39,392 nucleotides of DNA. It comes from a virus. Shown here piece after piece: positions 3,619 through 29,870 of the stretch. The translations under genes and the position numbers were made by a program. The number at the start of each line of letters is the position of its first letter. The first letter of the stretch is position 1. The DNA is taken from positions 10,953 through 50,344 of the IMG/VR virus record IMGVR_UViG_3300023278_002863; one strand, written 5' to 3'. The notes beneath the pieces were generated by a model. The model did no database searches. It had not been told where the DNA came from and was given only the letters and a program-made list of their open reading frames with translations.

Positions 3619-4227
3619 TTAATCTTTGAATAAATCATTTTGGTCTGTCTGAGCATTTATACTCTTTACAATTTTGTCGTTGTCCAGCAGGGCAATAAAG
3701 CTTTCAATCTCCTGAACAGATGCAAAGGCAAAGACTCCACCATCGCATTTTAGGTATTCGTTGTCAGAAGCTGACATCTCTCCGGTTCGCATAATGATGT
3801 AGTAATTAACTTCTTCCTTGGCATCCTTAACAACAGAGAACTCAAACGTAGGAGTCATGTTGTAACAAAAATTCCATTCATCAATGGAATAAAAAAATCC
3901 CAAGACCCTTGTAGACCTTACCTTTATTTTCTTCTGAAGCTTAGTGACATTATTTGCAATAGCCACATTTTTCCATTCAGAATACTTTTCAATACATACA
4001 TTAAATGCTTCTACAAGCACCTCTGCTTGCTTAGGTTCAATCTTAATACCTACCTTATCCTTATACGTGTCCATAGACAGCATATCTATCCACAATGCCC
4101 AAGCGTTTTTAGTAGAGGAGACTTTTATCTCATACTCACCGTGAAGCGTTTTGTAGAATGTGTAAGGTTTTTGGCTGTAACCTTCTACAGCCAGCATAAT
4201 CAAAAGAAACAAAAAAAAGTTTTTCAT
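3619..4227 (-). CDS. exported protein with Sec signal peptide
   Basis: A 202-residue protein whose first 19 residues form a classical signal peptide: MKN, hydrophobic FFLFLLIMLAV, then EGYSQ with likely cleavage near Q19, a Bacteroidota-style site. The mature part has no further membrane segment and no recognised domain. A phage-encoded periplasmic protein suggests a role at the envelope, such as superinfection exclusion or lysis, but this is inference. A Bacteroidota-type -7 box lies just upstream (4251-4258), so this gene probably heads a transcript. Confidence 0.8.
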   Translation of the reverse strand: MKNFFLFLLIMLAVEGYSQKPYTFYKTLHGEYEIKVSSTKNAWALWIDMLSMDTYKDKVGIKIEPKQAEVLVEAFNVCIEKYSEWKNVAIANNVTKLQKKIKVRSTRVLGFFYSIDEWNFCYNMTPTFEFSVVKDAKEEVNYYIIMRTGEMSASDNEYLKCDGGVFAFASVQEIESFIALLDNDKIVKSINAQTDQNDLFKD

Positions 4228-4250
4228 AAATATTAGTTTAAATTGTTTAG

Positions 4251-4258
4251 CAAAGATA
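4251..4258 (-). promoter_or_regulatory. Bacteroidota-type -7 promoter box
   Basis: On the minus strand the sequence reads TATCTTTG, a perfect fit to the Bacteroidota -7 consensus TAnnTTTG, in a 125-bp AT-rich gap about 25 bp before the exported-protein start. No convincing TTTG -33 box is seen at the right distance, so strength is uncertain. Confidence 0.5.
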
Positions 4259-4352
4259 CAAAACTTTTAATAAAAATTAGTCTTTATTAAGAAATATTTT
4301 TATCAAAAAGTTCCATTTTTTAATAGCCAGACGTTGTTTTTCCGTCCAAGCG

Positions 4353-4820
4353 TTAATCGAAATTACCTTGGCTTTTGTTTTCATGTAAGTGTTTTGAAAG
4401 TTTTAAAGTTATTTTTTCCGATAGTACATGACCATAGAAAGCACGAAGTATGCTCGTACTTCCTATAGGGTAGGGGTTAAGGTCTGCATTATATTGATAC
4501 GACCTTATATCCAAGCCTTTACGTTGTGCATCAGCAATAAGCAAAGCCTGAAGCTTTATTGCTATTTTTTTCCTTCTCTTATGCTCTTTAGCGACAAGAG
4601 GGTGAACGGGCAATGGAAAGAAAAATCTCCAGCATTTTTTCCATACACGAGCCGAAACTTTCCGACCGCAATAAATAGCATATACTCCTTTTGCCGATAT
4701 TGGAAACGGATTAGGGATCCGGTTATACGACCTGCACAAAGCAGAAGGTGTGTACCCTTGCTTTGTGCAGTAATCGTATACCATTTCCCTTAATTTTGCG
4801 TACTGCTCTTCACTAACCAT
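4353..4820 (-). CDS. protein with two tandem helical repeats (possible DNA-binding)
   Basis: A 155-residue basic protein made of two related units of about 50 residues (15-67 and 95-145). Each carries an N-terminal helix, then YN....NP.PI, then an aromatic/Gly motif (AIYCGRK, AFYGHVL) and a basic helix. The NP.PI....I.A.YG core is shared. The size and layout resemble paired helix-turn-helix units, so it may bind DNA or RNA; no named family is recognised. It overlaps the upstream gene by 31 bp. Confidence 0.75.
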   Translation of the reverse strand: MVSEEQYAKLREMVYDYCTKQGYTPSALCRSYNRIPNPFPISAKGVYAIYCGRKVSARVWKKCWRFFFPLPVHPLVAKEHKRRKKIAIKLQALLIADAQRKGLDIRSYQYNADLNPYPIGSTSILRAFYGHVLSEKITLKLSKHLHENKSQGNFD

Positions 4821-5152
4821 TTCATTGTAGATTTTCTGAGTAAATCAATTACTATTTTGTTCATCTCGTCAATTAACCAAGCTTGTAATTGAAGACGGGT
4901 AGTTTCGTAAAGGTAATACTGATTGCCCAAAGCCTGGGCATACTCTGTCGTATTGGAGTGCAAGTGGCATCTATGCTCCTTAAGGAAGGTGTCCAATTCT
5001 CCTCCGATGTGCCACCATTCAGCGGAGGTTGAACGTCCGTAATCAACACGGGTTAATATCTCTGAGAACTCATCCCATAGTTTCACCTGAGGGTCATCTT
5101 CATCAAAGAATTTTTTAATAAAATCCCAATCAAATTTAGGCAATTGTTTCAT
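4790..5152 (-). CDS. hypothetical protein
   Basis: A 120-residue protein rich in Trp, Asp and Glu (WDFIKKFFDEDDPQVKLWDEF; WWHIGGELDTFLKEH), probably helical. No function is recognised. It lies 3 bp from the upstream gene and overlaps the tandem-repeat gene downstream. Confidence 0.75.
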   Translation of the reverse strand: MKQLPKFDWDFIKKFFDEDDPQVKLWDEFSEILTRVDYGRSTSAEWWHIGGELDTFLKEHRCHLHSNTTEYAQALGNQYYLYETTRLQLQAWLIDEMNKIVIDLLRKSTMKWLVKSSTQN

Positions 5153-7311: not shown

Positions 7312-7557
7312 TTAGTTATTGAAAAATTTTAACCATTCTACTACTTCGGTGTAAACTTCCTCAAGGCTGTACCTTTTGCAGATACAATCTATACCGTGTT
7401 CTTTTGCAATTTTTAATGCCACCGGCATAAGCCAATCCCATGATGACCGAAATTTGCTCAAGGATTTAATTGAATATGTCCATTCACCATTTTTAAAACT
7501 TCTTTTATCAGAGTATTTTATACCCATGAATTCAGCAATTATAATATTATTTTCCAT
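7312..7557 (-). CDS. 'EFMG...SWDxLMPV' family protein, copy 1
   Basis: An 81-residue protein carrying NNIIIAEFMG near the start, SSWDWLMPV in the middle and an EVYTEVVEWLKFFNN end. The same modules occur in the genes at 7711 and 8079, so this is one of three tandem paralogues. The family is widespread in small phage proteins but of unknown function. The start lies inside the end of the 7547-7705 gene, and the shared AATAACAGCTATGG leader is therefore also coding sequence. Confidence 0.8.
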   Translation of the reverse strand: MENNIIIAEFMGIKYSDKRSFKNGEWTYSIKSLSKFRSSWDWLMPVALKIAKEHGIDCICKRYSLEEVYTEVVEWLKFFNN

Positions 7558-7705
7558 AGCTGTTATTTTGAATGGTTTCCATTGCAGGTTTAGAAAGTTC
7601 TTTTATCACTCTCAGCATCCCTTTACCTTCTGCTTTTTCTCTACTGTTGCCAAATTCCACAAGTTCATTAGCTTGCTCTGTAAGGTCTTTAAATAATTTT
7701 TTCAT
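7547..7705 (-). CDS. small hypothetical protein
   Basis: A 52-residue Lys/Glu-rich helical protein (MKKLFKDLTEQANELVEFGN... ending TIQNNSYGK). It is supported by an AAAAATAACAGCTATG leader identical to that of neighbouring genes, and by overlap of its 3' end with the next gene's start. No function is recognised. Confidence 0.65.
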   Translation of the reverse strand: MKKLFKDLTEQANELVEFGNSREKAEGKGMLRVIKELSKPAMETIQNNSYGK

Positions 7706-7710
7706 AGCTG

Positions 7711-8073
7711 TTATTTTTGATTGTAAATAATTTTTCTCTGAGTAATAAAATCTACTACTGCATCATAGACCGTGTCCAGATCCAAAGATGCAATTGCATT
7801 CTCAATATCACGAAATTCCATCCGGTCTGCCAATTTTGAACATTCTAACACCACCGGCATCAGAGCATCCCATGACTCATGGTATTTTAAAGGAGAAACG
7901 ACTGCTGAAGGGATAATGCCGTACCTATCATCGAAGTGGTCAATTTCGGCTTGTGCTTCCTCTTTGTTAAGGTTTCTGCTTAAGGTAACATTGCCACGGT
8001 AATCATTAACATCAACAATGTCATAGGTTTTTTCTTTACGCATAAACTCTGAAATCATTTTATTGTTTTTCAT
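7711..8073 (-). CDS. 'EFMG...SWDxLMPV' family protein, copy 2
   Basis: A 120-residue protein with KMISEFMRK at the start, YHESWDALMPVVLEC at about 78-92 and a C-terminal TVYDAVVDFITQRK. It is paralogous to its neighbours at 7312 and 8079. The frame is open to 8145, but the internal ATG at 8073 has the AAAAATAACAGCTATG leader and gives the family N-terminus, so it is chosen. Confidence 0.8.
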   Translation of the reverse strand: MKNNKMISEFMRKEKTYDIVDVNDYRGNVTLSRNLNKEEAQAEIDHFDDRYGIIPSAVVSPLKYHESWDALMPVVLECSKLADRMEFRDIENAIASLDLDTVYDAVVDFITQRKIIYNQK

Positions 8074-8078
8074 AGCTG

Positions 8079-9065
8079 TTATTTTTGATTGTTTAATAAT
8101 TTGATAAATTTGATTACTGCTCCGTAGGTTCCTTGAAGGTTGCATTCACCTTGTGCTTGGTTTACATCATGCATCTCTTTTCCATCTAATTCCACCGTAC
8201 ATTTAGCGTAGCATTTTTCTATAACCGGCATCAGAGCATCCCATGATTCATGGTATTTTGCCAGCACAATAAGGTCGGGGTCACAATCGGTGTGTATCAT
8301 TGGAACTTCATCATCTCCTAACATAGCAGAGTATTCATGCCCACAGTTGTTGCAAGAGTGCCTACCATTATTTTCGTGGACATTGTATAAACCCATGAAT
8401 TCAGCAATTAGCAAAGTGTCTTTTTTGAGTTCCTCTTCCACGGATAGTATATGTAGAGCAAGAGACTTATCATTGCAGGATTCAGAATGTTGCAAATGAA
8501 TGTCATAAAATTGATTTCCAATATTCAGAAGGTGCAATGTAGAGAACTGTTTAATATCTCTTCCATTAAGCAATTCTGTATCCTTAGATAGGAGTTTTTT
8601 GATTACTTCCAAAGCTTCGGTTTCTGTGTATGTTTTCACTCCCTCTGCATGACCATAGTCACAATAAACGTTCTGAGGAGTGATATCATAATCACCATTT
8701 TTGTCGAAATCCCAATTGGTGACCTGATCATCCGGAGCCTCCGGAAGAAAACCTACCAATCTTTCTTTGGGTAGAAAGTGGAGGAGTTCGTCAATGGCAG
8801 TAAGGTCATTATACTCAATGTCATCTTTTATTTTTTCTATTACTGCATCAACAAGAGATTCGTCAGAAGCATTTGTCTCCGACATCTGTAGACAAAACTG
8901 CAACTCCGGAATAAAACTTGCTGTATTCAAACAGCAAGAGCATAACTCAGAGTAATCTAAAAACAGTTTTCCATTGTCATCAGTTTCTACCGTGAGGTTC
9001 ATTTTTGTGCCACAGCACTCAGAAACTTGATTATATTCTTTAATATTAAGATTCATAATACGCAT
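8079..9065 (-). CDS. 'EFMG...SWDxLMPV' family protein, copy 3, with N-terminal extension
   Basis: A 328-residue protein. The C-terminal 110 residues are the third copy of the family (LLIAEFMG, KYHESWDALMPVIEKC, AVIKFIKLLNNQK) with an inserted CNNCGHEYS zinc-ribbon-like knuckle. The N-terminal 215 residues are different, Cys-containing (CCGTK..., LCSCC) and acidic, and not recognised. This looks like a fusion of a separate domain to a duplicated module. A terminator-like hairpin lies upstream (9076-9107). Confidence 0.75.
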   Translation of the reverse strand: MRIMNLNIKEYNQVSECCGTKMNLTVETDDNGKLFLDYSELCSCCLNTASFIPELQFCLQMSETNASDESLVDAVIEKIKDDIEYNDLTAIDELLHFLPKERLVGFLPEAPDDQVTNWDFDKNGDYDITPQNVYCDYGHAEGVKTYTETEALEVIKKLLSKDTELLNGRDIKQFSTLHLLNIGNQFYDIHLQHSESCNDKSLALHILSVEEELKKDTLLIAEFMGLYNVHENNGRHSCNNCGHEYSAMLGDDEVPMIHTDCDPDLIVLAKYHESWDALMPVIEKCYAKCTVELDGKEMHDVNQAQGECNLQGTYGAVIKFIKLLNNQK

Positions 9066-9433: not shown

Positions 9434-9658
9434 TTACACAAGTGATTCGAAGGTCAGATTGCCTTCGTCATCCCAAAGGACTTGGAAGGTCTCTATCCAC
9501 TCTTCAGTCTCGTTTACCACAATCACATCATCTTCGATGTAATGGTAAAGGGTATATTTGTCGTTAAGTTCAACCTCCGCTCCGTACGGCAAAGCTTTAC
9601 ACATCCGGAGAGTTATTTTGCTGAGGGCATCATCTAATTTCGCATTCATGGTAAGCAT
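9434..9658 (-). CDS. hypothetical acidic protein
   Basis: A 74-residue protein (MLTMNAKLDDALSKITL) with a YTLYHYIEDDVIVVNETEEW core, suggesting a small beta-rich fold. The start could be Met1 (9658) or Met4 (9649). It is the first gene after the promoter at 9699-9729. Confidence 0.75.
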   Translation of the reverse strand: MLTMNAKLDDALSKITLRMCKALPYGAEVELNDKYTLYHYIEDDVIVVNETEEWIETFQVLWDDEGNLTFESLV

Positions 9659-9698: not shown

Positions 9699-9729
9699 CA
9701 AATATAAGCTATTAATATTTAAATGTCAA
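9699..9729 (-). promoter_or_regulatory. Bacteroidota-type promoter
   Basis: On the minus strand a TTG (in CTTGACA, 9727-9729) is followed after 20 nt by TATATTTG (9699-9706), matching the Bacteroidota pattern TTG ... TAnnTTTG. It drives the 9434 and 9120 genes and lies downstream of the tRNA-like element, so that element belongs to the preceding transcript. Confidence 0.65.
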
Positions 9730-9754
9730 GTTTTTTATTAAAAATCTTGTTTTG

Positions 9755-9800
9755 TAGACAGAAGAGGAGTCGAACCTCTTCCATGCACCAATGCTGTCTA
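9755..9800 (-). ncRNA. tRNA-top-half-like minihelix beginning at a UAG stop (copy 1)
   Basis: On the minus strand TAGACA (9795-9800) pairs with TGTCTA (9755-9760). Directly stacked on it is a 7-bp hairpin (9761-9767 with 9775-9781) with the seven-base loop TTCGACT, a consensus tRNA T-loop. The two helices total 13 bp, close to the 12-bp acceptor/T stack of tRNA, and a 13-nt bulge replaces the D and anticodon arms. The first three bases are the UAG stop of the upstream exported-protein gene. No anticodon arm is present. A second example lies at 13840-13881. Confidence 0.55.
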
Positions 9801-10142
9801 TCCCTCGTAAGGGTAATATATAACGACAGATACAGACTCCTCAAGTCTTTTGCCGTTAACAGTGATTATTTTGCCCATATTAGGCATCTTTAACAAATCA
9901 TTTACTCTATACCTGCCTTTCCGGAATAAGGCATCTAATGACTGTATAGAGCAATTGGCAGTAACAGTAGTCTCTATTATAGTCCGACTGCCTTTAGACT
10001 TTACCACCTTCACATAAGAAGGTATTTTTTTGATGTTCGTTATAGCCTCCGCTTTAAGGGTCTGACTATATGTTCTTCTGCTCTGCCCATAGGACATAAC
10101 TGAAGCCAACATCACCAAAAGAAAAACGCATTTTTTCAACAT
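9798..10142 (-). CDS. exported protein with signal peptide
   Basis: A 114-residue protein with a signal peptide MLKKCVFLLVMLASVMSYGQS (cleavage likely after about residue 20), typical of Bacteroidota secretion. The mature 94 residues are basic and probably alpha/beta, resembling no domain I can name. Its UAG stop forms the 5' end of a tRNA-like minihelix. The 5' leader is a 27-nt sequence shared with the gene at 12767. Confidence 0.75.
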   Translation of the reverse strand: MLKKCVFLLVMLASVMSYGQSRRTYSQTLKAEAITNIKKIPSYVKVVKSKGSRTIIETTVTANCSIQSLDALFRKGRYRVNDLLKMPNMGKIITVNGKRLEESVSVVIYYPYEG

Positions 10143-13050: not shown

Positions 13051-13800
13051 CTAATGCTTTAAATAAGCAATAGTCTTTATCTCCGGATTCCAACATTTTC
13101 TGCAATCTTCACATCTATGAGAAGATTCTTTTCGTGTAGCATGACAGACATTTCCTTCCATTGTAAGAGAAGGCAACATCTCTTCATTATCAATCACAAT
13201 GCTGTTCTGCGATTTGGTTTTTACTTCCTTAATGCTGTTGTTCATGTGGGCAGAAAACCTTACCACAAGGTTAACCGGAAGACTTCCGGAAAACTTCTTA
13301 ACAATTGAATACTCTCTTGTAGGTAACCAAAATTTGACATCCGGCAACATCTCTGCAATAAAGCAGATGTCTGCAAAATGTTTTACTGATTGCAAATCGC
13401 CGGAATCATGCCATCTGAAATAACCGGAATCACAGTTCTTACCGTGATTGAAAATAGCTATAGATAAGACCATAGATTCTCTCCAAAACTTACCTTGTAA
13501 CGTTTCAAATCTACGATATAATGCATCTTTTACGTTACTGAAATTGTATCTGCCTCGCAAGGCATAACATTTTTCACAAGTACTACCAACTACATTTACT
13601 AATTTGCTTCCGACCTTGCACTCCCAAGCAGGAATATTGTATGCGAAAGACGGCATTTTAGAGGGTGAAGATAAACCTCCATTATAACCTTGCAAAACTT
13701 TTTTGACTTCAGCTTTGGATGTACAATTGTCTAATAGACTGATTAAAAATTGAAAATTTGGCTGTCCTGAAAACTGCTGATATTTTTTTCTCCAAGTCAT
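13051..13800 (-). CDS. Gp88-family phage protein
   Basis: A 249-residue protein fitting the phage 'gene product 88' family: PSFAYNIPAWEC (50-61), TCEKCYALRGRYNF (74-87), YRRFETLQ, RWHDSGDL (129-136), PDVKFWLPTRE (153-163), VRFSAH, and a C-terminal C...C..C..CW cluster (219-237). The conserved cysteines suggest a metal or Fe-S centre. The family's biochemical role is not established to my knowledge. The ATG at 13800 follows a TATCAGTATT leader and a tRNA-like minihelix. Confidence 0.85.
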   Translation of the reverse strand: MTWRKKYQQFSGQPNFQFLISLLDNCTSKAEVKKVLQGYNGGLSSPSKMPSFAYNIPAWECKVGSKLVNVVGSTCEKCYALRGRYNFSNVKDALYRRFETLQGKFWRESMVLSIAIFNHGKNCDSGYFRWHDSGDLQSVKHFADICFIAEMLPDVKFWLPTREYSIVKKFSGSLPVNLVVRFSAHMNNSIKEVKTKSQNSIVIDNEEMLPSLTMEGNVCHATRKESSHRCEDCRKCWNPEIKTIAYLKH

Positions 13801-13839
13801 AATACTGATAATTTAAGTTAATGAATAAATGAATAATTG

Positions 13840-13881
13840 TAGGCAAGGCAGATTCGAACTGCCTCAAATACCATATACCTA
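13840..13881 (-). ncRNA. tRNA-top-half-like minihelix beginning at a UAG stop (copy 2)
   Basis: On the minus strand TAGGTA (13876-13881) pairs with TGCCTA (13840-13845; one G-U). It is stacked on a 6-bp hairpin (13846-13851 with 13859-13864) whose seven-base loop is TTCGAAT, a consensus T-loop. The composite helix is 12 bp, exactly the length of a tRNA acceptor/T stack; an 11-nt bulge stands where the D and anticodon arms would be. As in copy 1, the first three bases are the UAG stop of the preceding gene and CTACAA ends the element. Confidence 0.55.
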
Positions 13882-14130
13882 TTTATAAGCTATGCAATCG
13901 TACTTATCAGAATATGCCTTCTGTTGTCCGGTAATGCTGTGGATTATCTGTATGTTTGCCTCTCTCCGGATTGTCTCTCTATACTCGTATTCTGCTGTCT
14001 TACGTTCGTCTTCAAATAGAGTAATAATTGCAGTCAAAAGATTCTCCTCAAGAGATAAAGAATTGTAGAATGTTACCTTTTCTTCAGAGATAACTTGCAT
14101 AACTGTTGTAACTGTCTTTGGATAATTCAT
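13879..14130 (-). CDS. hypothetical protein
   Basis: An 83-residue helical protein (MNYPKTVTTVMQVISEEKVTF). No function is recognised. Its UAG stop is the first triplet of the tRNA-like element at 13840-13881. Confidence 0.7.
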   Translation of the reverse strand: MNYPKTVTTVMQVISEEKVTFYNSLSLEENLLTAIITLFEDERKTAEYEYRETIRREANIQIIHSITGQQKAYSDKYDCIAYK

Positions 14131-14725: not shown

Positions 14726-14827
14726 TTAGTTGTTTGAGATTAATTGCGCTATAGCTATAATTAAAGCGCAATAGTTAAGAATAAGGATAATTGCTACAAT
14801 TCTGTCTGCAAGTTCATGTTTGTTCAT
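14726..14827 (-). CDS. small membrane protein
   Basis: A 33-residue ORF (MNKHELADRIVAIILILNY, then CALIIAIAQLISNN) with one predicted membrane helix. Its ATG overlaps the TGA of the upstream gene (ATGA), the same coupling seen between annotated genes here, which supports it. Function unknown. Confidence 0.5.
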   Translation of the reverse strand: MNKHELADRIVAIILILNYCALIIAIAQLISNN

Positions 14828-15240
14828 TTTTGGTAAATTTTATAGAAATTAGTAAATAGATTTTCAAATTTTGTGTTATTGATATTCATTTTTTCGAATG
14901 TCCAATTCGGTGATATCCTTGGATTGAAACAGATTTGAACATCTGTTTTTACCTTCAATTCTGTTATGCTGTAATCAGCACAAACAATCCATGCACAGCG
15001 TTCTTTGTGAACACCCTTATCTCTGCCGTTATAGATATGCTGAGAACGTGACAAAGCATTGTGCAAATAACAGTCAGACATCTCTATTGTATTTTTTGTG
15101 CCGTCTATATAACCTATCACTTTTCCAAGCTTAGTATTACCTTCGCATTCTCGGATTTGGAAAAATCCTTTTACTGACTGTTTTTTGCCTTCATGCATGA
15201 CCTTGGTTGTACCTAAATGTCTTCTTATTGCGTAATTCAT
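14824..15240 (-). CDS. tandem paralogue pair, member 2, conserved phage protein
   Basis: A 138-residue protein (MNYAIRRHLGTTKVMHEGKK). It shares FQIREC, GYxDGTKN, CADYSITEL and the nearly identical C-terminal NWTFEKMNINNTxFENL with the adjacent gene at 15237, so the two are tandem duplicates. The IRxHLG...K.FQIRE...GYVD pattern is common in phage hypothetical proteins; function is unknown. Confidence 0.8.
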   Translation of the reverse strand: MNYAIRRHLGTTKVMHEGKKQSVKGFFQIRECEGNTKLGKVIGYIDGTKNTIEMSDCYLHNALSRSQHIYNGRDKGVHKERCAWIVCADYSITELKVKTDVQICFNPRISPNWTFEKMNINNTKFENLFTNFYKIYQK

Positions 15241-15617
15241 AATTGATATATTTTATCTGATACACTAATCAGATTTTCAAAATTAGTGTTATTAATATTC
15301 ATTTTTTCGAATGTCCAATTTGGACATTTCCTTGGATTGATACAGATTTCAACAGCTGTTTTTTCTCTCAATTCTGTTATGCTGTAATCAGCACAAACAA
15401 TGTACGCACAAGGACGTTTTTTTGGATAACGTCCGGAATGTATTTTTTCGCTTATGTTAATGTTGTTGTACAAAAAACAATCTGTCATTAATAGACTGTT
15501 TTTTGTGCCGTCAACATAACCAACAACATCACCTTGTTTGTTGTTTGCGAGGCATTCACGGATTTGAAAATGTCCGTGATTTTTACCTTGTCCGAGATGT
15601 AATCTAATAGTATACAT
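15237..15617 (-). CDS. tandem paralogue pair, member 1, conserved phage protein
   Basis: A 126-residue protein (MYTIRLHLGQGKNHGHFQIRE), paralogous to the gene at 14824 and overlapping its start by 4 bp. The strongest similarity is in the last 60 residues, suggesting a fairly recent duplication or gene conversion of the 3' half. It is the second ORF after the leftward promoter at 15824. Confidence 0.8.
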   Translation of the reverse strand: MYTIRLHLGQGKNHGHFQIRECLANNKQGDVVGYVDGTKNSLLMTDCFLYNNINISEKIHSGRYPKKRPCAYIVCADYSITELREKTAVEICINPRKCPNWTFEKMNINNTNFENLISVSDKIYQL

Positions 15618-21032: not shown

Positions 21033-21416
21033 ATGTCAGTTAAAGAGAAGAGTATTATAACGAGAAAAGTCCTTGTGGCTAATGTTGATGCCATTGAGGC
21101 TTATTTAAGTAAGGACAATGGTAAGTTCAGGTTCTGCCAGGAAGATAACAAATATTATACAGAGGGGGCGCAGAAGGGGGTTCCATTGCATCTTGTTCGT
21201 GGGTATATGAGTAGGCTGTTGGTGGTGTATGTGGATCGTCACAACTTTGAGGTTACAATAAATACTGTACCTTTGACTCGTGGTGCGCAGAGTGGTGTTG
21301 TTGTGGAGAGCAATAAGACTATGATCAGGAAGCCTGAGTTGTTCTTTGAGTTGTTAAAGGAGAAGCAGTTGGAGTATGAAAAAATTGTTGAACACATGCA
21401 AAATCAGAAAAGGTAA
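21033..21416 (+). CDS. hypothetical protein upstream of GroEL
   Basis: A 127-residue protein (MSVKEKSIITRKVLVANVDA) with an alpha/beta first half and a Lys/Glu helix at the end. Its TAA overlaps the chaperonin ATG (TAATG), so the two are translationally coupled. A helper role for the chaperonin is possible only by context. Confidence 0.75.
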   Translation: MSVKEKSIITRKVLVANVDAIEAYLSKDNGKFRFCQEDNKYYTEGAQKGVPLHLVRGYMSRLLVVYVDRHNFEVTINTVPLTRGAQSGVVVESNKTMIRKPELFFELLKEKQLEYEKIVEHMQNQKR

Positions 21417-23257
21417 TGGGACATTCAAAACATTTGTTGATTAGGGGCAGGGAGGAATATGTATCGGGTTTAGTTAAGGAGTTAAGTGATGTTATTGTTA
21501 GCACTATGGGTCCGGGGGGCGATATCGCTCTGATACAGACGGGTAGTGGCACTATGGCTACAAAGGATGGGGTGACGGTTAGTAGGCATATTGCACCACG
21601 TGACAGCTTTTCGTCTATGATTAGTCGTTTGATTATTGATGCTGCCAATCGTACTGTTAAGGAAGTTGGAGATGGCACTACAACTACGGTGTGCCTGTTG
21701 TCGGCTCTGTATAGTTTGTGGGTACATAATTATCGTGAGCAGTTCTTTGACAAGAGGCAGTTCTTGATTGGCATGGATGAGGCTGTCAAGGATGTGTTGT
21801 CGTTGATGAAGGAAGGGGGAAGGAGTGTTTATAATAGGGATGGTATTTGCAAGAACACTCTGTGCCATGTGGCACGTATTGCCTGCAATGGTGACAATAC
21901 TACAGCAGACATGATTAGTGATCTGGTGTATAGTGTTGGTGCTAATGGGCGTGTGATGATTAAAAAGAATATTGGTTCTGTGACTTATACTGAGAGGGAG
22001 AGTGGCTATACCTTTGATACGGTGTTGTTGGGAAGACAACACCTTCGTGACCGTACCAAGGGTGAGACTGTTTTGATAAACCCTTTGTTTATGTTGTCTG
22101 CGGATGTATTTGAAGACGATGTTGATATTGTTCCTGTTATTGATGCTTGGTTGCGTAGCAGTGAGTTGAAGGATGAGAATGGTGCTATACGGCCACTTGT
22201 TATTGTTACTACGGGATTGACGGGTGCTGCCCGAAGCTTTATCAGTGCCAATGCTGACCAGGCACCTGTTTATGTAGTATCACCACCGCTGGGTGGCGAG
22301 GAGGGATGGGAAGTGATGACAGATATTCAAGATCTTACGGCAACGCATCAGGTGTATCTGAAGGCAGGGGGAAAGCCTGTCCGAGATGCCTTTGGTGCTG
22401 ACTTTGAGCCGGAGGATGAGATGGAACTGCCACAGCCGTGGAAGGAGTTTGGTAGTGCTTCCAAGTGTATATTGAGTCCTACTAAGTGTAGTATTATTCC
22501 GGATAAGGAATATAGTTCAGATAGTCGTGTGGCTTTGATACAGGCACGTATTGCCAAGAGTCAGAGTGAGAGGGAGATAGAGTTCTTGCAGCAGAGGATT
22601 GCTGCATTGCTTGGAGGAGTTGGAGTTGTCTATGTGGGTGCAGATTCTGATGCTGAAGCAGATAAGCTTGAGCATGCTATTGATGATGGTCAGAGGGCAT
22701 GCTTTACTGCTCTGAAAGGAGGGGTTGTAGCTGGAGCAGGAAGGAGTATGTGGTTTGCCAGTGTTCATCTTTCTAACGTAGGAAATGTTGCTTTGAATTG
22801 TTCTGACGAGGACCACGTGGAGGCGAGTTATTGGAATGGGTACAACCTGGTGCTTCAGGCATTAGCTATTCCTGCGTGTCAGATTATTGCCAACTACCTT
22901 GGGTGTGCTAAGTTTGAGGCAGGACAAAAGCTTGAGGAGTTGGAGCATGATGAAGACTTAATGTCATCCAGATGGCGTGGATGGGAAGCCAATGGCAGAC
23001 TTGTAGATGACATGTTTGATGCAGGGATAATTGACCCTTATCTTGTCTGTCAGTCGGCTATAAAAAATGCATCGAGTGTTGCAAAACAATTGATTCACTG
23101 TAAGTATGTGTTAATAGAGGATAAGGGCGATGAAGGGTTTATAGGCGCACCTGGGGAGCAAGTGGATGAGCGTATTAATACGGATGATGTTCGGGAGTTA
23201 TACAAGAGATTAGATTTATTAAAAGCAAATAAAGAAGGAAACGCATGGCACGGATAA
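21416..23257 (+). CDS. groEL-like: GroEL-type group I chaperonin (phage-encoded)
   Basis: A 613-residue Cpn60 homologue; E. coli GroEL has 548. MGPGG (31-35) matches the nucleotide phosphate loop LGPKG, TKDGVTVSR (49-57) contains the D52 equivalent (Asp51), GDGTTT (85-90) the D87 equivalent (Asp86), and a gap-free alignment over GGVGVVYVGA...GGVVAGAG (400-442) puts Asp424 at D398. ATPase residues thus seem intact. The apical domain (about 188-380) aligns through GYTFD and LVIVTTGLTG. The Gly/Met-rich tail is absent, replaced by a charged C-terminus; extra length lies in the apical domain and C-terminal region. It overlaps the GroES gene by 13 bp. The role is ATP-driven folding, probably of phage structural proteins. 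Confidence 0.95.
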   Translation: MGHSKHLLIRGREEYVSGLVKELSDVIVSTMGPGGDIALIQTGSGTMATKDGVTVSRHIAPRDSFSSMISRLIIDAANRTVKEVGDGTTTTVCLLSALYSLWVHNYREQFFDKRQFLIGMDEAVKDVLSLMKEGGRSVYNRDGICKNTLCHVARIACNGDNTTADMISDLVYSVGANGRVMIKKNIGSVTYTERESGYTFDTVLLGRQHLRDRTKGETVLINPLFMLSADVFEDDVDIVPVIDAWLRSSELKDENGAIRPLVIVTTGLTGAARSFISANADQAPVYVVSPPLGGEEGWEVMTDIQDLTATHQVYLKAGGKPVRDAFGADFEPEDEMELPQPWKEFGSASKCILSPTKCSIIPDKEYSSDSRVALIQARIAKSQSEREIEFLQQRIAALLGGVGVVYVGADSDAEADKLEHAIDDGQRACFTALKGGVVAGAGRSMWFASVHLSNVGNVALNCSDEDHVEASYWNGYNLVLQALAIPACQIIANYLGCAKFEAGQKLEELEHDEDLMSSRWRGWEANGRLVDDMFDAGIIDPYLVCQSAIKNASSVAKQLIHCKYVLIEDKGDEGFIGAPGEQVDERINTDDVRELYKRLDLLKANKEGNAWHG

Positions 23258-24333: not shown

Positions 24334-24966
24334 ATGAAAGAACAGGAATTTAGTGGTATGGAGTTTAATCCCTTTGAGCCGTTTGGCGAGACCTTCATGT
24401 GCAAACACTTTAAAAGGTTAGGTAAGATAGAGGCATTTAGCTATCTGCCAGCGGAGTACAAAGAGGCAGGATGGAAGAAAAACAACATCGACCGAATGCT
24501 AAGATTTGTAGTAGTGTTTATAGACCCACAGTCACCACTATTTGAGGAGAGGGATTTCATGAAACGCAGGAAGCTTGCAAAGAAGGTGATAGGGATTAAG
24601 AAGGATGATGTGGAAAATGCAGAGATAGAGGACGAGGCAGAGGTCTTTCAGGAATTAACATACGAATACTTCAGGTTAATCCACGCTACTAACTACGAGC
24701 AATGGTTTACTTATAAGATGCAGATTGCAGATTTCAATAAGTATCTAAGGACTCCTATTGAGAAGTCTGCGCAGAAGGTGGCACAGGAAGTAAATGCCCG
24801 TAAGAGTCTTATGCAACAGATAGGGTCGTTTACAGAAGAGATGCAGAAATTAGAGAATGTGATATTTAATGATGACAGGTTAGCTAAAATGATTAATGAA
24901 AAGGCTGTGCAAAACTCAATAGGAGGATATGCAGAGCGATTTGCAGATGAACCAGAATGGCATTAA
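24334..24966 (+). CDS. conserved protein upstream of TerL (possible small terminase-like)
   Basis: A 210-residue, largely helical, charged protein (MKEQEFSGMEFNPFEPFGET). The mid part is Lys/Glu-rich (KVIGIKKDDVENAEIEDEAE) and residues about 140-190 look like a coiled coil (EKSAQKVAQEVNARKSLMQQ). Position directly upstream of TerL, overlapping it by 10 bp, is where a small terminase subunit would sit, but no DNA-binding motif is visible. Confidence 0.7.
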   Translation: MKEQEFSGMEFNPFEPFGETFMCKHFKRLGKIEAFSYLPAEYKEAGWKKNNIDRMLRFVVVFIDPQSPLFEERDFMKRRKLAKKVIGIKKDDVENAEIEDEAEVFQELTYEYFRLIHATNYEQWFTYKMQIADFNKYLRTPIEKSAQKVAQEVNARKSLMQQIGSFTEEMQKLENVIFNDDRLAKMINEKAVQNSIGGYAERFADEPEWH

Positions 24967-27113
24967 ACGAAAAATTATACACAGCAGAGTGGGATTTTGA
25001 AAACCCATATGATGTCACACCCATTGACGGGTTTGACATTCCCGTCTCCCTCCCCAAGAAACCACCAAAAACTTACTTTAATAATATGAACAAGGCCGTA
25101 TCAAATCAAAAGTTTGAACGGGAAGTAATACCAAAGGATCTTATGAGGTGGCCGGAGAGGCTGCGAGATAAGTTTGTGGAGAGGATGTATCACAAAAGAC
25201 GGAACGGGGAATGGTGGATGATTAAAGGAAAAGAAGTGTACATCACGGGCAAGTATTGGTTTTACCTGAACTTCTGGTGGACAGAGTCGGGGATGTTCCC
25301 AGAGTTCAGAGAAGGGGATATGAACTTCTACCTCGTGTGGGAGCATTGCTGTAGGGATGAAAATTGTTATGGGATGTTGCATATAAAGGGCAGACGTATG
25401 GGTGATACTGAAAAGGCTCTGAATCTTGTGTGGGAAAAAAGTTCCGGCACACGATATACATGGTGTGGCATGCAGAATGTGAAGGAGGATGATGCCAAAG
25501 ATAACTTTATACGTATCGTTCATGCACACAATAAGATACCGTGGTTCTTCAAGCCTATCATGAAGGGTAGTTCCGCTCCGACAAAGGATATGGAGTTTGA
25601 TTATCCGGAAGAGATATACTCCCGAAAGAAGCTTAAAGAAAAGAAGAAGCGTGGAGATATAGACTCGCAGGGAGACCTGATACACAAGTATAGTCCTATA
25701 CAGAGCCGGATAGATTACGAGACTTCCGTTAAAGGGAGATATGACGGTAAGAGGCTTGCGATCTGGCATTTGGATGAGCCTGGCAAGATTACAGCCTTTG
25801 ATGTCAACGAGCAGTGGAGTATCATAAAACCTGCCCTTGCTCTGCAGAACGGGGTAAAGATAATTGGTAAGGCATTGTGGACAACAACGGTTGAAGACTT
25901 TGAGAGTGCTAAGACGATGCAGAATATACAAAAGACATGGAATGATAGTGACCCCTCTAATAAAAATAAAAATGGCAGGACCAAGTCAGGGTTGTACAGG
26001 TACTTCAGAAATTGTATCTATGCCTTTACTGTAGACGAGTGGGGATTTCACGATAAGGAGGCGTGTATAGAATTTGTCAATAACGAGAAGGAATCGTTTG
26101 AACAGATGACAGACTGGGACGGGTTAGCAGACTTTATGCGTAAACATCCGTTGAGTATAGAGGATGTGTTTAAGCCTCCTCACAACGAGTGTGTGCTGTT
26201 TCCGGCACTTCTTGATAAGAGAATGACACAGATAGATACTAACAAAGCTGGAAATGGAGGAGATGTTTCTGCAACAGGAACACATGTTAAACCGTTAGAG
26301 ATAGCAGGGGACTTTGTGTGGACAGGAGGATTCGGAGGAGAGGTTATGTGGCTTCCATCTAAGAATGGCAAGTGGAGAGTGTCACACTTTCCGGATAAGC
26401 CTAACAACTTCTTTAAACAGGCAGACGGTCTGCCACGACCAGGAAATGATAATCAGTACACGTTTGGAGTTGACCCGATTGACCATATGGCAGAGAAAGG
26501 AGAAGGATCTGATGGTGGCGGTGCTATATATAGAAGGTATAACGAAATAGTGGATGGCAATCTTGATAAGGACGAAGAAGGTGAAGTGGCCGAGTGGGAT
26601 ATGTGGAAAATGCAGACAGACAGGTTTGTTGCTGATTACATGGATAGGCCGGACAATCCATACGAGTACTTTGAGGAGATGCTGAAAGCAGGTGTGTACT
26701 ATGGTGTGCCTGTGTTTCCGGAAGCGAACAGGGGGTCGATAATCCCTTGGTTTTATAGCAAAGGGTTTAAGCATTACATAAAAGGAAGACCCAAAGAAAC
26801 ACACATAGATCAGAACAAAAAGAAAAGAAAAGCGTTTAGAAAAGAAAAAGGAATCAAAGCAAACACAGCAATTATACATCTTTACACGCAGGAATTAAAG
26901 AAGCATGTGTTTAGTCGGTGGCAGACAATCCACCACAAGAGGATAATAAATGATTTCAGACAATATAATGTAAAGAACAGGACGTACCGAGATTTAACGG
27001 TTGCATGTGGCATGGCACTTCTTGCTGCCATGGATATGAAAAAAGAGGCAGGGGCAGTGGTTAAAAAAGATTGGAACGGTCTACCGTTGAAGAAAAGAAA
27101 ACGAAGGGTATGA
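24957..27113 (+). CDS. terL: terminase large subunit
   Basis: A 718-residue packaging motor. The ATPase domain has a Walker A-like HIKGRRMGDTEKA (142-154) and Walker B LAIWHLDEPGK with Asp273-Glu274. The C-terminal nuclease domain has YTFGVDPID (catalytic Asp), VPVFPEANR and YRDLTVACGMALLA, which correspond to the three acidic positions of RNase H-like terminase nucleases. The layout and the long N-terminal WW-rich region resemble crAss-like phage TerL. It cuts concatemeric DNA and pumps it through the portal. Confidence 0.88.
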   Translation: MALNEKLYTAEWDFENPYDVTPIDGFDIPVSLPKKPPKTYFNNMNKAVSNQKFEREVIPKDLMRWPERLRDKFVERMYHKRRNGEWWMIKGKEVYITGKYWFYLNFWWTESGMFPEFREGDMNFYLVWEHCCRDENCYGMLHIKGRRMGDTEKALNLVWEKSSGTRYTWCGMQNVKEDDAKDNFIRIVHAHNKIPWFFKPIMKGSSAPTKDMEFDYPEEIYSRKKLKEKKKRGDIDSQGDLIHKYSPIQSRIDYETSVKGRYDGKRLAIWHLDEPGKITAFDVNEQWSIIKPALALQNGVKIIGKALWTTTVEDFESAKTMQNIQKTWNDSDPSNKNKNGRTKSGLYRYFRNCIYAFTVDEWGFHDKEACIEFVNNEKESFEQMTDWDGLADFMRKHPLSIEDVFKPPHNECVLFPALLDKRMTQIDTNKAGNGGDVSATGTHVKPLEIAGDFVWTGGFGGEVMWLPSKNGKWRVSHFPDKPNNFFKQADGLPRPGNDNQYTFGVDPIDHMAEKGEGSDGGGAIYRRYNEIVDGNLDKDEEGEVAEWDMWKMQTDRFVADYMDRPDNPYEYFEEMLKAGVYYGVPVFPEANRGSIIPWFYSKGFKHYIKGRPKETHIDQNKKKRKAFRKEKGIKANTAIIHLYTQELKKHVFSRWQTIHHKRIINDFRQYNVKNRTYRDLTVACGMALLAAMDMKKEAGAVVKKDWNGLPLKKRKRRV

Positions 27114-27445
27114 TGGCAGGAGCATGGGTGGTGTTGCATACAATATTTGCAGCAATACAACACACAAGTAAGAATTATATTGAGTTAAAAAGTTTTAAAG
27201 AAGACTTAAAAGAAATATTAATTTATATATTAATGTGTATCGTAGTGTTTAGTTATGGGTACCCTATACATTTAGCAGTGGTCATGTCTTGTGTAATTGG
27301 TTGTTTTTATGTATTTTGTGCAATGGGTTGGAAAATCTTTGCTATATTAACACCTCTACACTGGCGTTGGGCCTCCTTTATGGGGTTCAATAATCTATTC
27401 ATTTCAGGAACATTAGCTTTTTTATTGTACATATGTTATGGTTGA
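27110..27445 (+). CDS. three-helix membrane protein between TerL and portal
   Basis: A 111-residue hydrophobic protein starting at ATG 27110, which overlaps the TerL stop (ATGATG), and overlapping the portal start by 8 bp. Likely membrane segments are EILIYILMCIVVFSYGYPI, LAVVMSCVIGCFYVFCAMG and LFISGTLAFLLYIC. A membrane protein in the packaging operon is unusual; a holin or another late membrane function is possible but unproven. Confidence 0.7.
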   Translation: MMAGAWVVLHTIFAAIQHTSKNYIELKSFKEDLKEILIYILMCIVVFSYGYPIHLAVVMSCVIGCFYVFCAMGWKIFAILTPLHWRWASFMGFNNLFISGTLAFLLYICYG

Positions 27446-29870
27446 AACACAGAAATACATAGGAGAGAAAGACTATAAGTCTGGAAAATACAAAATGCCC
27501 AATCGGGCATCTCAAAAAGACGATAAGTTCTATCTCAAGATGGCAAAGTATATGTGGTCACAGTACGTGAGCAATTCCAGTGCTATAAGTTATGGTGGCT
27601 ATAGTTCGACTTCCGGAAAAAGTTTTGTAGAGTTGAGGCTCTATGCCCTTGGTCAGCAAGACAAGTTACGATACATGGAACTGTTGGACGATTGTGATGA
27701 GTTCACACAGGAGGGATATCTGAATCTGAATTGGGACATAGTCCAGATCCTTCCAAAGTTTACTGACATCGTAAAGGGTAAACTTGCAGGGATGGACTTT
27801 GAGATGAACACCCAGGCTATCGATGCGGTATCAAACAAGAAAAGGCTAAGGAAGTCCAACAAGATGAAAATCCTTGCAAACCCTCAGATGCAAGAGTTTA
27901 TGAAAAAGACGGGGTTTCGGCCAAAGGGCATGAAACTGCCTTCGTATATAAAATCCGTGGAAGACGTAGAAGTCTATGTAAAAATGGGAGGGGTTAAGCT
28001 GGAATATGAGATGGCGATGAGAGATGCCATAGAAAGCACAAAATATGAAAGCCGTTGGGATACACTGAAAGATAAGATAGTAGAAGACGTAATTACTTTG
28101 GGCATATGTGCCATTAAAACTAAATGTCATGAGAAGACTCACAAGGTTATTGCAGACTATGTAGACCCTCTGTATCTTGTTATACAGCCATCTAAGTATG
28201 CAGACTATCGTGATAGCACATGGGCAGCGGAAATAAGAACCGTTACGATTGGCCAATTAAGAATGGAGTCCAATTTAACCGAAGGAGATATCCTTGAGAT
28301 TGTAAAAAAATATAGAGGGCAACGTGGGAACTCAAAGACATACGATGTGCCAACGGGAATAGAATGGGAGAAGTCCTACCAAAACGACTATGACTTTGAT
28401 ACAACACAGATTTCTTATAATGACTTTACGATAGACGTTATGGAGAGTTACTTCATAGCTAAAGACGTAGAAAGATACATTGTAGGAGTCAGAGAAGACG
28501 AGGGGAACTACATCTATGATAAAGTAAAAAGGAACGCAAAGCTTAATAAAAAACAAAAAAAGTCGGGAAAGAATACAGAGGACAATATTATACAGAAGTG
28601 TTACAAGTGCTTCTGGGTGATAGGGACAGACTATCTGTATGACTGTGGCGAGGAGTACGCTATCGCTAAAGCTGAGAAAGATGGCGTGAAAGAAGCACTA
28701 CTTCCTATTCAAGTTTACTCAAACAAAACAAAAAGTATAGTGGAGAGATGTATATCCTTTGTAGATGATATACAGCTTGCTACACTGAAGAAAAGAAATG
28801 CCCTATCTAAGATGGCTCCTGGGCCACGCATGATTATAGATAAAAGTATTCTAAGGGATTCTGTAGATATTGGTGGACAACAATATTCAATGTTGGACTT
28901 GCTGTCGGTATATAGCAAGTCGGGAGTTATGATCGTAGAATCCAGGCCGGAATACGAAGGTGACGAAGGGGCCAGCAACAGAAGACCATTTGACTTCATG
29001 CCGTCCGGAGTCATGGAGGATATTAATATCTTCCTTCAAGAGATATCTCATAACGTAGACCTTATCAGGCAGGTCACAGGTATAAATGAAGTGGCTGACG
29101 GTAGTACACAGAAACAGGACATGTTGGTAAAAGTCATGGAGGGATTAAATGCAGCAACCAATAACGCCTTGAGGCCACACTTCAGACTGTATGAAGGACT
29201 CTATGAAAATTGGTGCAAATATGCTTGTTTGAAATGGCAAACAGCTTTAATGGGTGGTGACATCGATGTCAACTATGTTCCTATGGGAGACACGATGATT
29301 CAAACTATAAAGCTTTCAAAAGATATGTACCTGTATGACTACGGCATACATATCACTTTGATTCCTTCGCAGGAGGACAGGCAGATGCTACTTCAGAACA
29401 TACAGCAGATGCGCATTGCAGACCAGCTTGCAATAGAGGATTACCTTGTGCTTCACAATATGATAAAAACAGGAGACATCAAAAAAGCGCAACTTTTCTT
29501 GGCAAAAGCAGTAAAAGAATATAGGAAGCTTCAACATCAAAGACAGTTGGAGCAGATGGATGCACAGGGGAAGGCCAATGGCGAAGCTGCAGTAATGGCT
29601 GAACAGGCAAGAGCGCAGACATCACAGATAAAACTGCAGGGCGATCTGGCAAAGATAGCAGCGCAGGGTGAGGAAGATAGAAAGACGATAGCCTTCCAGG
29701 CTAAATTTGACATGACGAGAGATGAAGAAAAAGACACTCGTAAGTTAGGTAGTGATGTCGTGCAGAAAGGCATGGATGCTGCCATAGAAGGTAAAATTCC
29801 ACCTCCACCAACAGGAGAGGAAATGCCACCGGGGCAAGAACAAATGCCACCTAATTTGGGAATGTCTTGA
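27438..29870 (+). CDS. portal protein
   Basis: An 810-residue protein. The N-terminal YALGQQDKLRYMELL and then LNWDIVQILPKFTDIVKGKL are typical of portals of crAss-like phages, where the ring of twelve subunits forms the DNA channel. The C-terminal third is a helical barrel/coiled coil rich in Gln, Ala and Lys, ending in a Pro-rich tail (PPPPTGEEMPPGQEQMPP). It follows TerL as in other tailed phages. Confidence 0.85.
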   Translation: MVETQKYIGEKDYKSGKYKMPNRASQKDDKFYLKMAKYMWSQYVSNSSAISYGGYSSTSGKSFVELRLYALGQQDKLRYMELLDDCDEFTQEGYLNLNWDIVQILPKFTDIVKGKLAGMDFEMNTQAIDAVSNKKRLRKSNKMKILANPQMQEFMKKTGFRPKGMKLPSYIKSVEDVEVYVKMGGVKLEYEMAMRDAIESTKYESRWDTLKDKIVEDVITLGICAIKTKCHEKTHKVIADYVDPLYLVIQPSKYADYRDSTWAAEIRTVTIGQLRMESNLTEGDILEIVKKYRGQRGNSKTYDVPTGIEWEKSYQNDYDFDTTQISYNDFTIDVMESYFIAKDVERYIVGVREDEGNYIYDKVKRNAKLNKKQKKSGKNTEDNIIQKCYKCFWVIGTDYLYDCGEEYAIAKAEKDGVKEALLPIQVYSNKTKSIVERCISFVDDIQLATLKKRNALSKMAPGPRMIIDKSILRDSVDIGGQQYSMLDLLSVYSKSGVMIVESRPEYEGDEGASNRRPFDFMPSGVMEDINIFLQEISHNVDLIRQVTGINEVADGSTQKQDMLVKVMEGLNAATNNALRPHFRLYEGLYENWCKYACLKWQTALMGGDIDVNYVPMGDTMIQTIKLSKDMYLYDYGIHITLIPSQEDRQMLLQNIQQMRIADQLAIEDYLVLHNMIKTGDIKKAQLFLAKAVKEYRKLQHQRQLEQMDAQGKANGEAAVMAEQARAQTSQIKLQGDLAKIAAQGEEDRKTIAFQAKFDMTRDEEKDTRKLGSDVVQKGMDAAIEGKIPPPPTGEEMPPGQEQMPPNLGMS

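Follow-up and report, generated by a model that had tools for sequence, protein, structure and literature searches.

Anticodon-less mini-tRNAs at gene ends in Bacteroidota phages, a candidate form of tRNA-style transcript punctuation

Minihelices made of an acceptor stem and a T-arm serve in the laboratory as models for RNase P and of the ancestral half of tRNA. The minimal substrates AT1 and pMini share with the element described here an acceptor stem stacked on a T-arm, the absence of an anticodon arm and the predicted cut between N-1 and N+1, but they are laboratory constructs with RCCA ends, whereas the element is natural, carries a linker with a D-loop-like GG and ends in A-C-W-A. RNase P indeed cleaves model substrates consisting of acceptor stem, T-stem and T-loop between N-1 and N+1, as the initial annotation of this locus had assumed, and RNase P processing is also known for polycistronic mRNA (PMC11143913).

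In animal mitochondria, tRNA folds punctuate the transcript at gene borders and overlap or abut stop codons, as the present element does; the latter, however, lacks the decoding half, resides in phage DNA, and its excision by tRNA enzymes is only predicted. The tRNA-like domain of tmRNA, which is processed by RNase P, also combines an acceptor stem, a T-arm and a D-loop without a full D-stem. By contrast, the mini-tRNA is 42-46 nt long, has no mRNA-like or pseudoknot part and is not alanine-specific, and the tmRNA model (RF00023) yielded only 17-nt T-arm fragments of 12-15 bits, with neither the tag-coding part nor the pseudoknots. Bacterial Y RNAs (YrlA) are likewise small RNAs that mimic tRNA, but their long Ro60-binding stem has no counterpart in the element, whose flanks are coding or short intergenic sequence. 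The his operon mRNA and the C4 RNA of P1/P7 are non-tRNA operon and phage RNAs used by RNase P; to our knowledge, their cleavage sites have not been described as a conserved tRNA-top-half family. No account of a mini-tRNA family such as the one reported here emerged from a literature search within the open PMC subset, though one may exist elsewhere.

The window, the whole 39,392-nt stretch of viral DNA analysed, contains two of these elements (Table 1). Copy 1 reads UAGACAG-CAUUGGUGCAUGG-AAGAGG-UUCGACU-CCUCUU-CUGUCUA-CAA (minus strand, 9800 to 9752) and copy 2 UAGGUA-UAUGGUAUUUG-AGGCAG-UUCGAAU-CUGCCU-UGCCUA-CAA (minus strand, 13881 to 13837). The acceptor/T-arm stack with loop TTCGACT that had been proposed for the first copy is thus confirmed, as 7+6 bp (or 6+7) forming 13 contiguous pairs without bulges in 46 bases, and the second copy implied by its label was found as well. 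In copy 1 the linker could also pair as GCA-UUGG-UGC, a D-arm-like hairpin of 3 bp. A Markov-shuffled window contains on average 0.03 hairpins with loop TTCGANT and at least 12 contiguous pairs (0.3 with looser loops), compared to the two observed, and a structural scan and model search of the whole 50.3-kb record gave no further copies. Taken alone, the folding energy of the single sequence does not reach significance (z = -0.9 including flanks and -1.9 for the bare element), and the significance of copy 1 is therefore drawn from the comparison across members of the family.

Table 1. Mini-tRNA copies and adjoining features in the window
Feature	Coordinates	Strand	Remarks
Mini-tRNA copy 1	9755..9800	minus	13-bp acceptor/T-arm stack; 13-nt linker with UUGG; T-loop UUCGACU
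CAA trailer (C74-A-A) of copy 1	9752..9754	minus	3' of A73 (9755); matches trailer of true tRNA genes in related phages
UAG stop of 114-aa gene	9798..9800	minus	U-1, A1 and G2 of copy 1
Gene upstream of copy 1	9798..10142	minus	114 aa; signal-like N-terminus (MLKKCVFLLVMLASVMSYGQ)
Promoter-like pair TTGACA...TATATTTG, Bacteroidota-type	9699..9729	minus	Consensus match only; just 3' of copy 1
Mini-tRNA copy 2	13840..13881	minus	12-bp stack; linker with AUGGUA; T-loop UUCGAAU
CAA trailer of copy 2	13837..13839	minus	
UAG stop of 83-aa gene (14130..13879)	13879..13881	minus	First three bases of copy 2
GP88 family gene (PF17338)	13051..13800	minus	Downstream of copy 2; start 37 nt past element

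Members of the family were collected by pattern scans of IMG/VR and bacterial genomes, followed by structure checks. The retained members have 13 uninterrupted pairs, whereas the rejected pattern matches have clearly fewer, mostly at most 9, so that the two groups split sharply. Covariance model R1 was built from eight members, all from other contigs and with the window copies held out, and it recovers both, copy 1 with 43.2 bits (E 5e-8) and copy 2 with 33.1 bits (E 1e-5), these E-values being rough. Furthermore, R1 detects L269, located in a phage contig (L035) with a terminase related to the window's, and a second model, R2, adds prophage or phage-like members from Sphingobacteriaceae (L276-L278) and Cytophagales (L344-L346). 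The phage and prophage members number 18 and come from unrelated Bacteroidota phages. Weak model matches (up to ~27 bits), mostly 3' ends of normal tRNAs, were left out of the family, and L279, a normal tRNA-Glu, was not counted.

In the 20-member alignment, 95.3% of the cells are paired and 95 cells carry double changes, compared to 28.2 in shuffled alignments and no more than 23 when the structure is slid. The covariation score is 0.91 versus 0.13-0.21 for slid structures, and compensatory changes occur in 12 of the 13 pairs, the sole exception being the invariant G53:C61. Together with a linker of only 10-13 nt, this covariation upholds the earlier proposal that the element mimics the top half of a tRNA without an anticodon arm. 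The tRNA hallmarks that persist are U-1, a D-loop-like UGG or GG in the linker, G53-UUCGANU-C61, usually A73, and C74. The conservation of UAG...CUACAA, GGU and UUCGANU is overstated and partly reflects selection, since the search pattern imposed these letters on most members; the window copies, L269, L277, L278 and L344-L346 were found without pattern selection, although the model favours the same letters. Likewise, all 20 members contain the GG, but this is partly dictated by the pattern or the model used to find them, and a full D-stem is absent. The covariation in the remaining pairs is unaffected. Judged from the sequences, these anticodon-less mini-tRNAs are a previously unlisted family across Bacteroidota phages and prophages.

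The comparison of homologous loci points in the same direction. Four related head modules (L189, L215, L255 and L276, with capsids 39-80% identical to that of L189) carry the element in front of the gp6-like connector region and after a ~51-aa gene that itself follows the major capsid gene. Their elements differ by compensatory double changes at four pairs, with none disrupted, and the upstream stop lies anywhere from 7 nt 5' of the element to its first base. L255 belongs to a prophage of Sphingobacterium sp. UT-1RO-CII-1. The gp6-like connector is encoded by 2 of 251 Sphingobacteriaceae genomes, and the element is present in both. Similarly, the proteins upstream of L209 and L269 are 47% identical (E 3e-21), whereas the elements themselves share only U-1, UGG, G53-UUCGAUU-C61, A73, C74, A76 and a few linker or stem bases, almost all other helix bases being swapped in pairs. 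A loss of the pairing or the T-loop at loci that keep the genes had been named as evidence against the element; the pairing is retained throughout, and so is the T-loop except in L276. There (1501-1547), perfect helices enclose AUCGUUU in place of UUCGAUU, with U54/A58 swapped to A/U.

The element is absent from most relatives of the window phage, as judged from TerL-anchored loci and GenBank relatives. R1 gave no match in 1.08 Mb of TerL-anchored loci, although one such contig carries L269 outside the searched stretch, and R2 gave nothing convincing, only ordinary tRNA tails or noise, in the GenBank Flavobacteriia phages snusmum, hattifnatt, phi19:1, phi13:2, elemoF, Arctus and Panino. No relatives were found in viral contigs through either upstream protein or through TerL alone, the window has no DNA similarity to GenBank phages, and the 114-aa protein has no match in Pfam or PHROG.

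The ends of the element resemble those of phage tRNA genes, with U-1, A73 and then CAA or CUA (C-W-A). Among 25 true tRNA genes from the same phages or their relatives, 21 have U-1 and all have C74, with trailers such as CAA and CUA. None of the elements encodes CCA, and N73 is U in L344-L346. In nearly all members the T-loop is followed by 13 nt up to N73, the same as the C61-N73 distance in tRNA. Features of an RNase P substrate are present, namely a ~12-bp helix ending at a single-strand junction, a T-loop, U-1 and a purine at 73. No full tRNA spanning the region was called when tRNA scanners were applied: ARAGORN reports none at the element and Rfam gives no match at the gathering score, the tRNA family (RF00005) reaching 19.4 bits over copy 1, with the anticodon arm deleted, against a cut-off of 29. 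The acceptor stems vary at almost every pair, which makes specific aminoacylation of the mini-tRNA unlikely on sequence grounds. A PreQ1 riboswitch was rejected, with 20 bits against a cut-off of 39 and inconsistent with the family.

With respect to genes, the element starts within -7 to +20 nt of an upstream same-strand stop in 13 of the 18 phage and prophage members (with ORFs called mechanically) and overlaps the upstream coding sequence in seven of them, by at most 20 nt (L277). In the initial annotation the UAG of the upstream gene opens the helix. This holds for both window copies but is not a family trait: across members the stop, which can also be UAA, is found as early as 7 nt ahead of the element, as late as its position 18-20, or at a greater distance. 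This drift in position and identity indicates that the UAG is a coincidental economy rather than a conserved device. Readthrough or recoding at UAG was rejected on the same variation in stop identity and register, and ribosome bypassing, suggested by GGA-UAG in copy 1 as in T4 gene 60, was rejected as other members lack that arrangement. The suggested link to an exported protein proved incidental, other members following capsid-module, methylase or unknown genes. Elements lie in the interval between Phage_capsid and the gp6-like connector, before a tape-measure module, 3' of an N6/N4 methylase gene and 3' of a putative tail gene. Copy 2 is intercistronic, ahead of the GP88 gene; a specific link to GP88 was dismissed, a GP88 homologue in L003 being without the element. 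Where the downstream side was examined, the start of the next gene is mostly 10-40 nt away, compared to 97 nt for copy 1. The promoter-like pair in Table 1 precedes a 74-aa gene (9658..9434, minus), so copy 1 may close a transcription unit; the pair is weak alone, as TAnnTTTG occurs 28 times on the same strand of the window.

The same fold (AAGAUG...UAAAGG-UUCGAUU-CCUUUA-CAUCUAA-CAA) is found independently in the 16S rRNA-operon leaders of a Flavobacteriaceae genus, 3' of a TAnnTTTG promoter and ~220 nt before 16S, in several operons. The loci of this genus, that of G710, are L307, L310, L286, L287, L311 and L312, and a relative (L308) has a diverged form. ARAGORN and Rfam annotate none of these leader elements where scanned. 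Among 30 other Flavobacteriaceae leaders, one (L337) contains a different tRNA-like structure with a 27-nt linker. Taken together, the folds in these leaders lie ~170-220 nt before 16S, with several copies per genome. Since marks for RNA processing are naturally expected in rRNA leaders, their mini-tRNAs favour a role in punctuation. Within ~700 nt, phage contig G014 (L343, minus strand, ~4160-4940) holds a normal tRNA-Met, an odd-armed degenerate tRNA and a mini-tRNA whose linker measures 15 nt, and it also carries an intergenic mini-tRNA. This side-by-side arrangement suggests that the mini-tRNA descends from phage tRNA genes.

On balance, the mini-tRNA is probably an intercistronic processing site for RNase P and RNase Z, a form of tRNA-style punctuation. 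The element, a natural minihelix of acceptor stem and T-arm probably derived from phage tRNA genes and retained as RNA punctuation, would fold into a tRNA elbow within the polycistronic phage transcript, with a GG in the linker acting as that of the D-loop and docking onto the T-loop. RNase P would then cut on the 5' side, between U-1 and N1. Based on tRNA geometry and the work on minimal substrates (PMC11143913), the predicted cut falls after U-1, between 9800 and 9799 in copy 1, and hence, for both window copies, within the UAG itself (U^AG) rather than just before it, as had been proposed. A second cut after N73 by RNase Z or exonucleases would separate the upstream mRNA from the downstream message. 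Given that the 5' strand reaches into or adjoins the upstream stop, ribosomes ending the upstream gene would unfold the element, and processing would thus compete with translation of that gene. The upstream fragment left after cleavage would be a non-stop mRNA, a cost to the upstream genes that counts against punctuation. So do the altered T-loop of L276, the lack of an encoded CCA and the absence of the element from most relatives of the window phage.

Alternatively, the fold might stay on the upstream mRNA as a stable 3' terminus that shields it from 3' exonucleases, perhaps after a cut by RNase Z only and addition of CCA. Plant-virus tRNA-like ends shield RNA in this manner, although no equivalent is known from phages. 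The element is flush with gene 3' ends, including directly behind the capsid module, and its A73/C74 trailer resembles tRNA genes; however, U-1 and the tRNA ruler fit RNase P equally, and terminating ribosomes would unfold such a cap in the several members that hold the upstream stop inside the fold, so this explanation is unlikely. We consider it quite unlikely that the element is excised as a free ~43-nt RNA with a role in trans, where it would serve as bait for proteins that bind or cut tRNA, tRNA-tail nucleases such as Cas12a3 included, or for tRNA-modifying enzymes. The full elbow mimicry, the variable stem sequence and the unrelated places at which phages carry the element agree with such a role, and a defence that cuts tRNA tails exists (PMC12851939). 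However, there is usually one copy per genome, within operons and without a dedicated strong gene, the missing anticodon loop would render the RNA useless against anticodon nucleases, and the tight fit to gene ends is left unexplained.

An unprocessed structure that regulates in cis the translation of the next gene or transcription termination is improbable. The next start codon is often close (11-40 nt downstream) and both helices are strongly conserved, but a plain hairpin would suffice for this purpose, the downstream genes are unrelated among members, and U-1, G53-UUCGANU-C61, the GG, A73, C74 and the rRNA-leader copies have no explanation. Functionless remains are highly improbable, whether of tRNA genes in decay or of tRNA 3' ends that integrase attachment left behind. 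The neighbours in contig G014 and the frequency of tRNA fragments in prokaryotes (PMC9897764) are in their favour, yet decay accounts for origin and not for maintenance, and the compensatory changes over very divergent loci, the matched and covarying 5' strand and the location within structural operons speak against it; the last two reasons also led to the rejection of a host tRNA 3' end left over from integrase attachment.

Taking punctuation as the preferred reading, a broader claim falls slightly short of an even chance: that anticodon-less mini-tRNAs serve as dedicated punctuation in Bacteroidota phages and, within the rRNA leader, in at least one host genus, selected only for cutting by RNase P and RNase Z and, where stops overlap, in competition with translation. 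If true, phages would shape their transcripts with host tRNA enzymes, the punctuation idea would become directly testable in bacteria, and intergenic sites missed by tRNA and RNA-family scanners would be accounted for.

Other features of the window include adjacent minus-strand ORFs (138 and 126 aa) at 14823-15410 with a 175-nt direct repeat of 83% identity, a tandem gene duplication, and a segment at 7421-8259 (ACCGGCATCAGAGCATCCCATGA...) that is repeated in neighbouring ORFs (97% between 7853 and 8224), a local duplication. A phage-encoded GroEL lies beside the terminase and portal genes (21416-23257 and 24957-29870). Of the phages described so far, Flavobacteriia podoviruses (Baltivirus phi13:2, Elemovirus and Maribacter phage Panino) are the closest, with a TerL identity of 24-28%.
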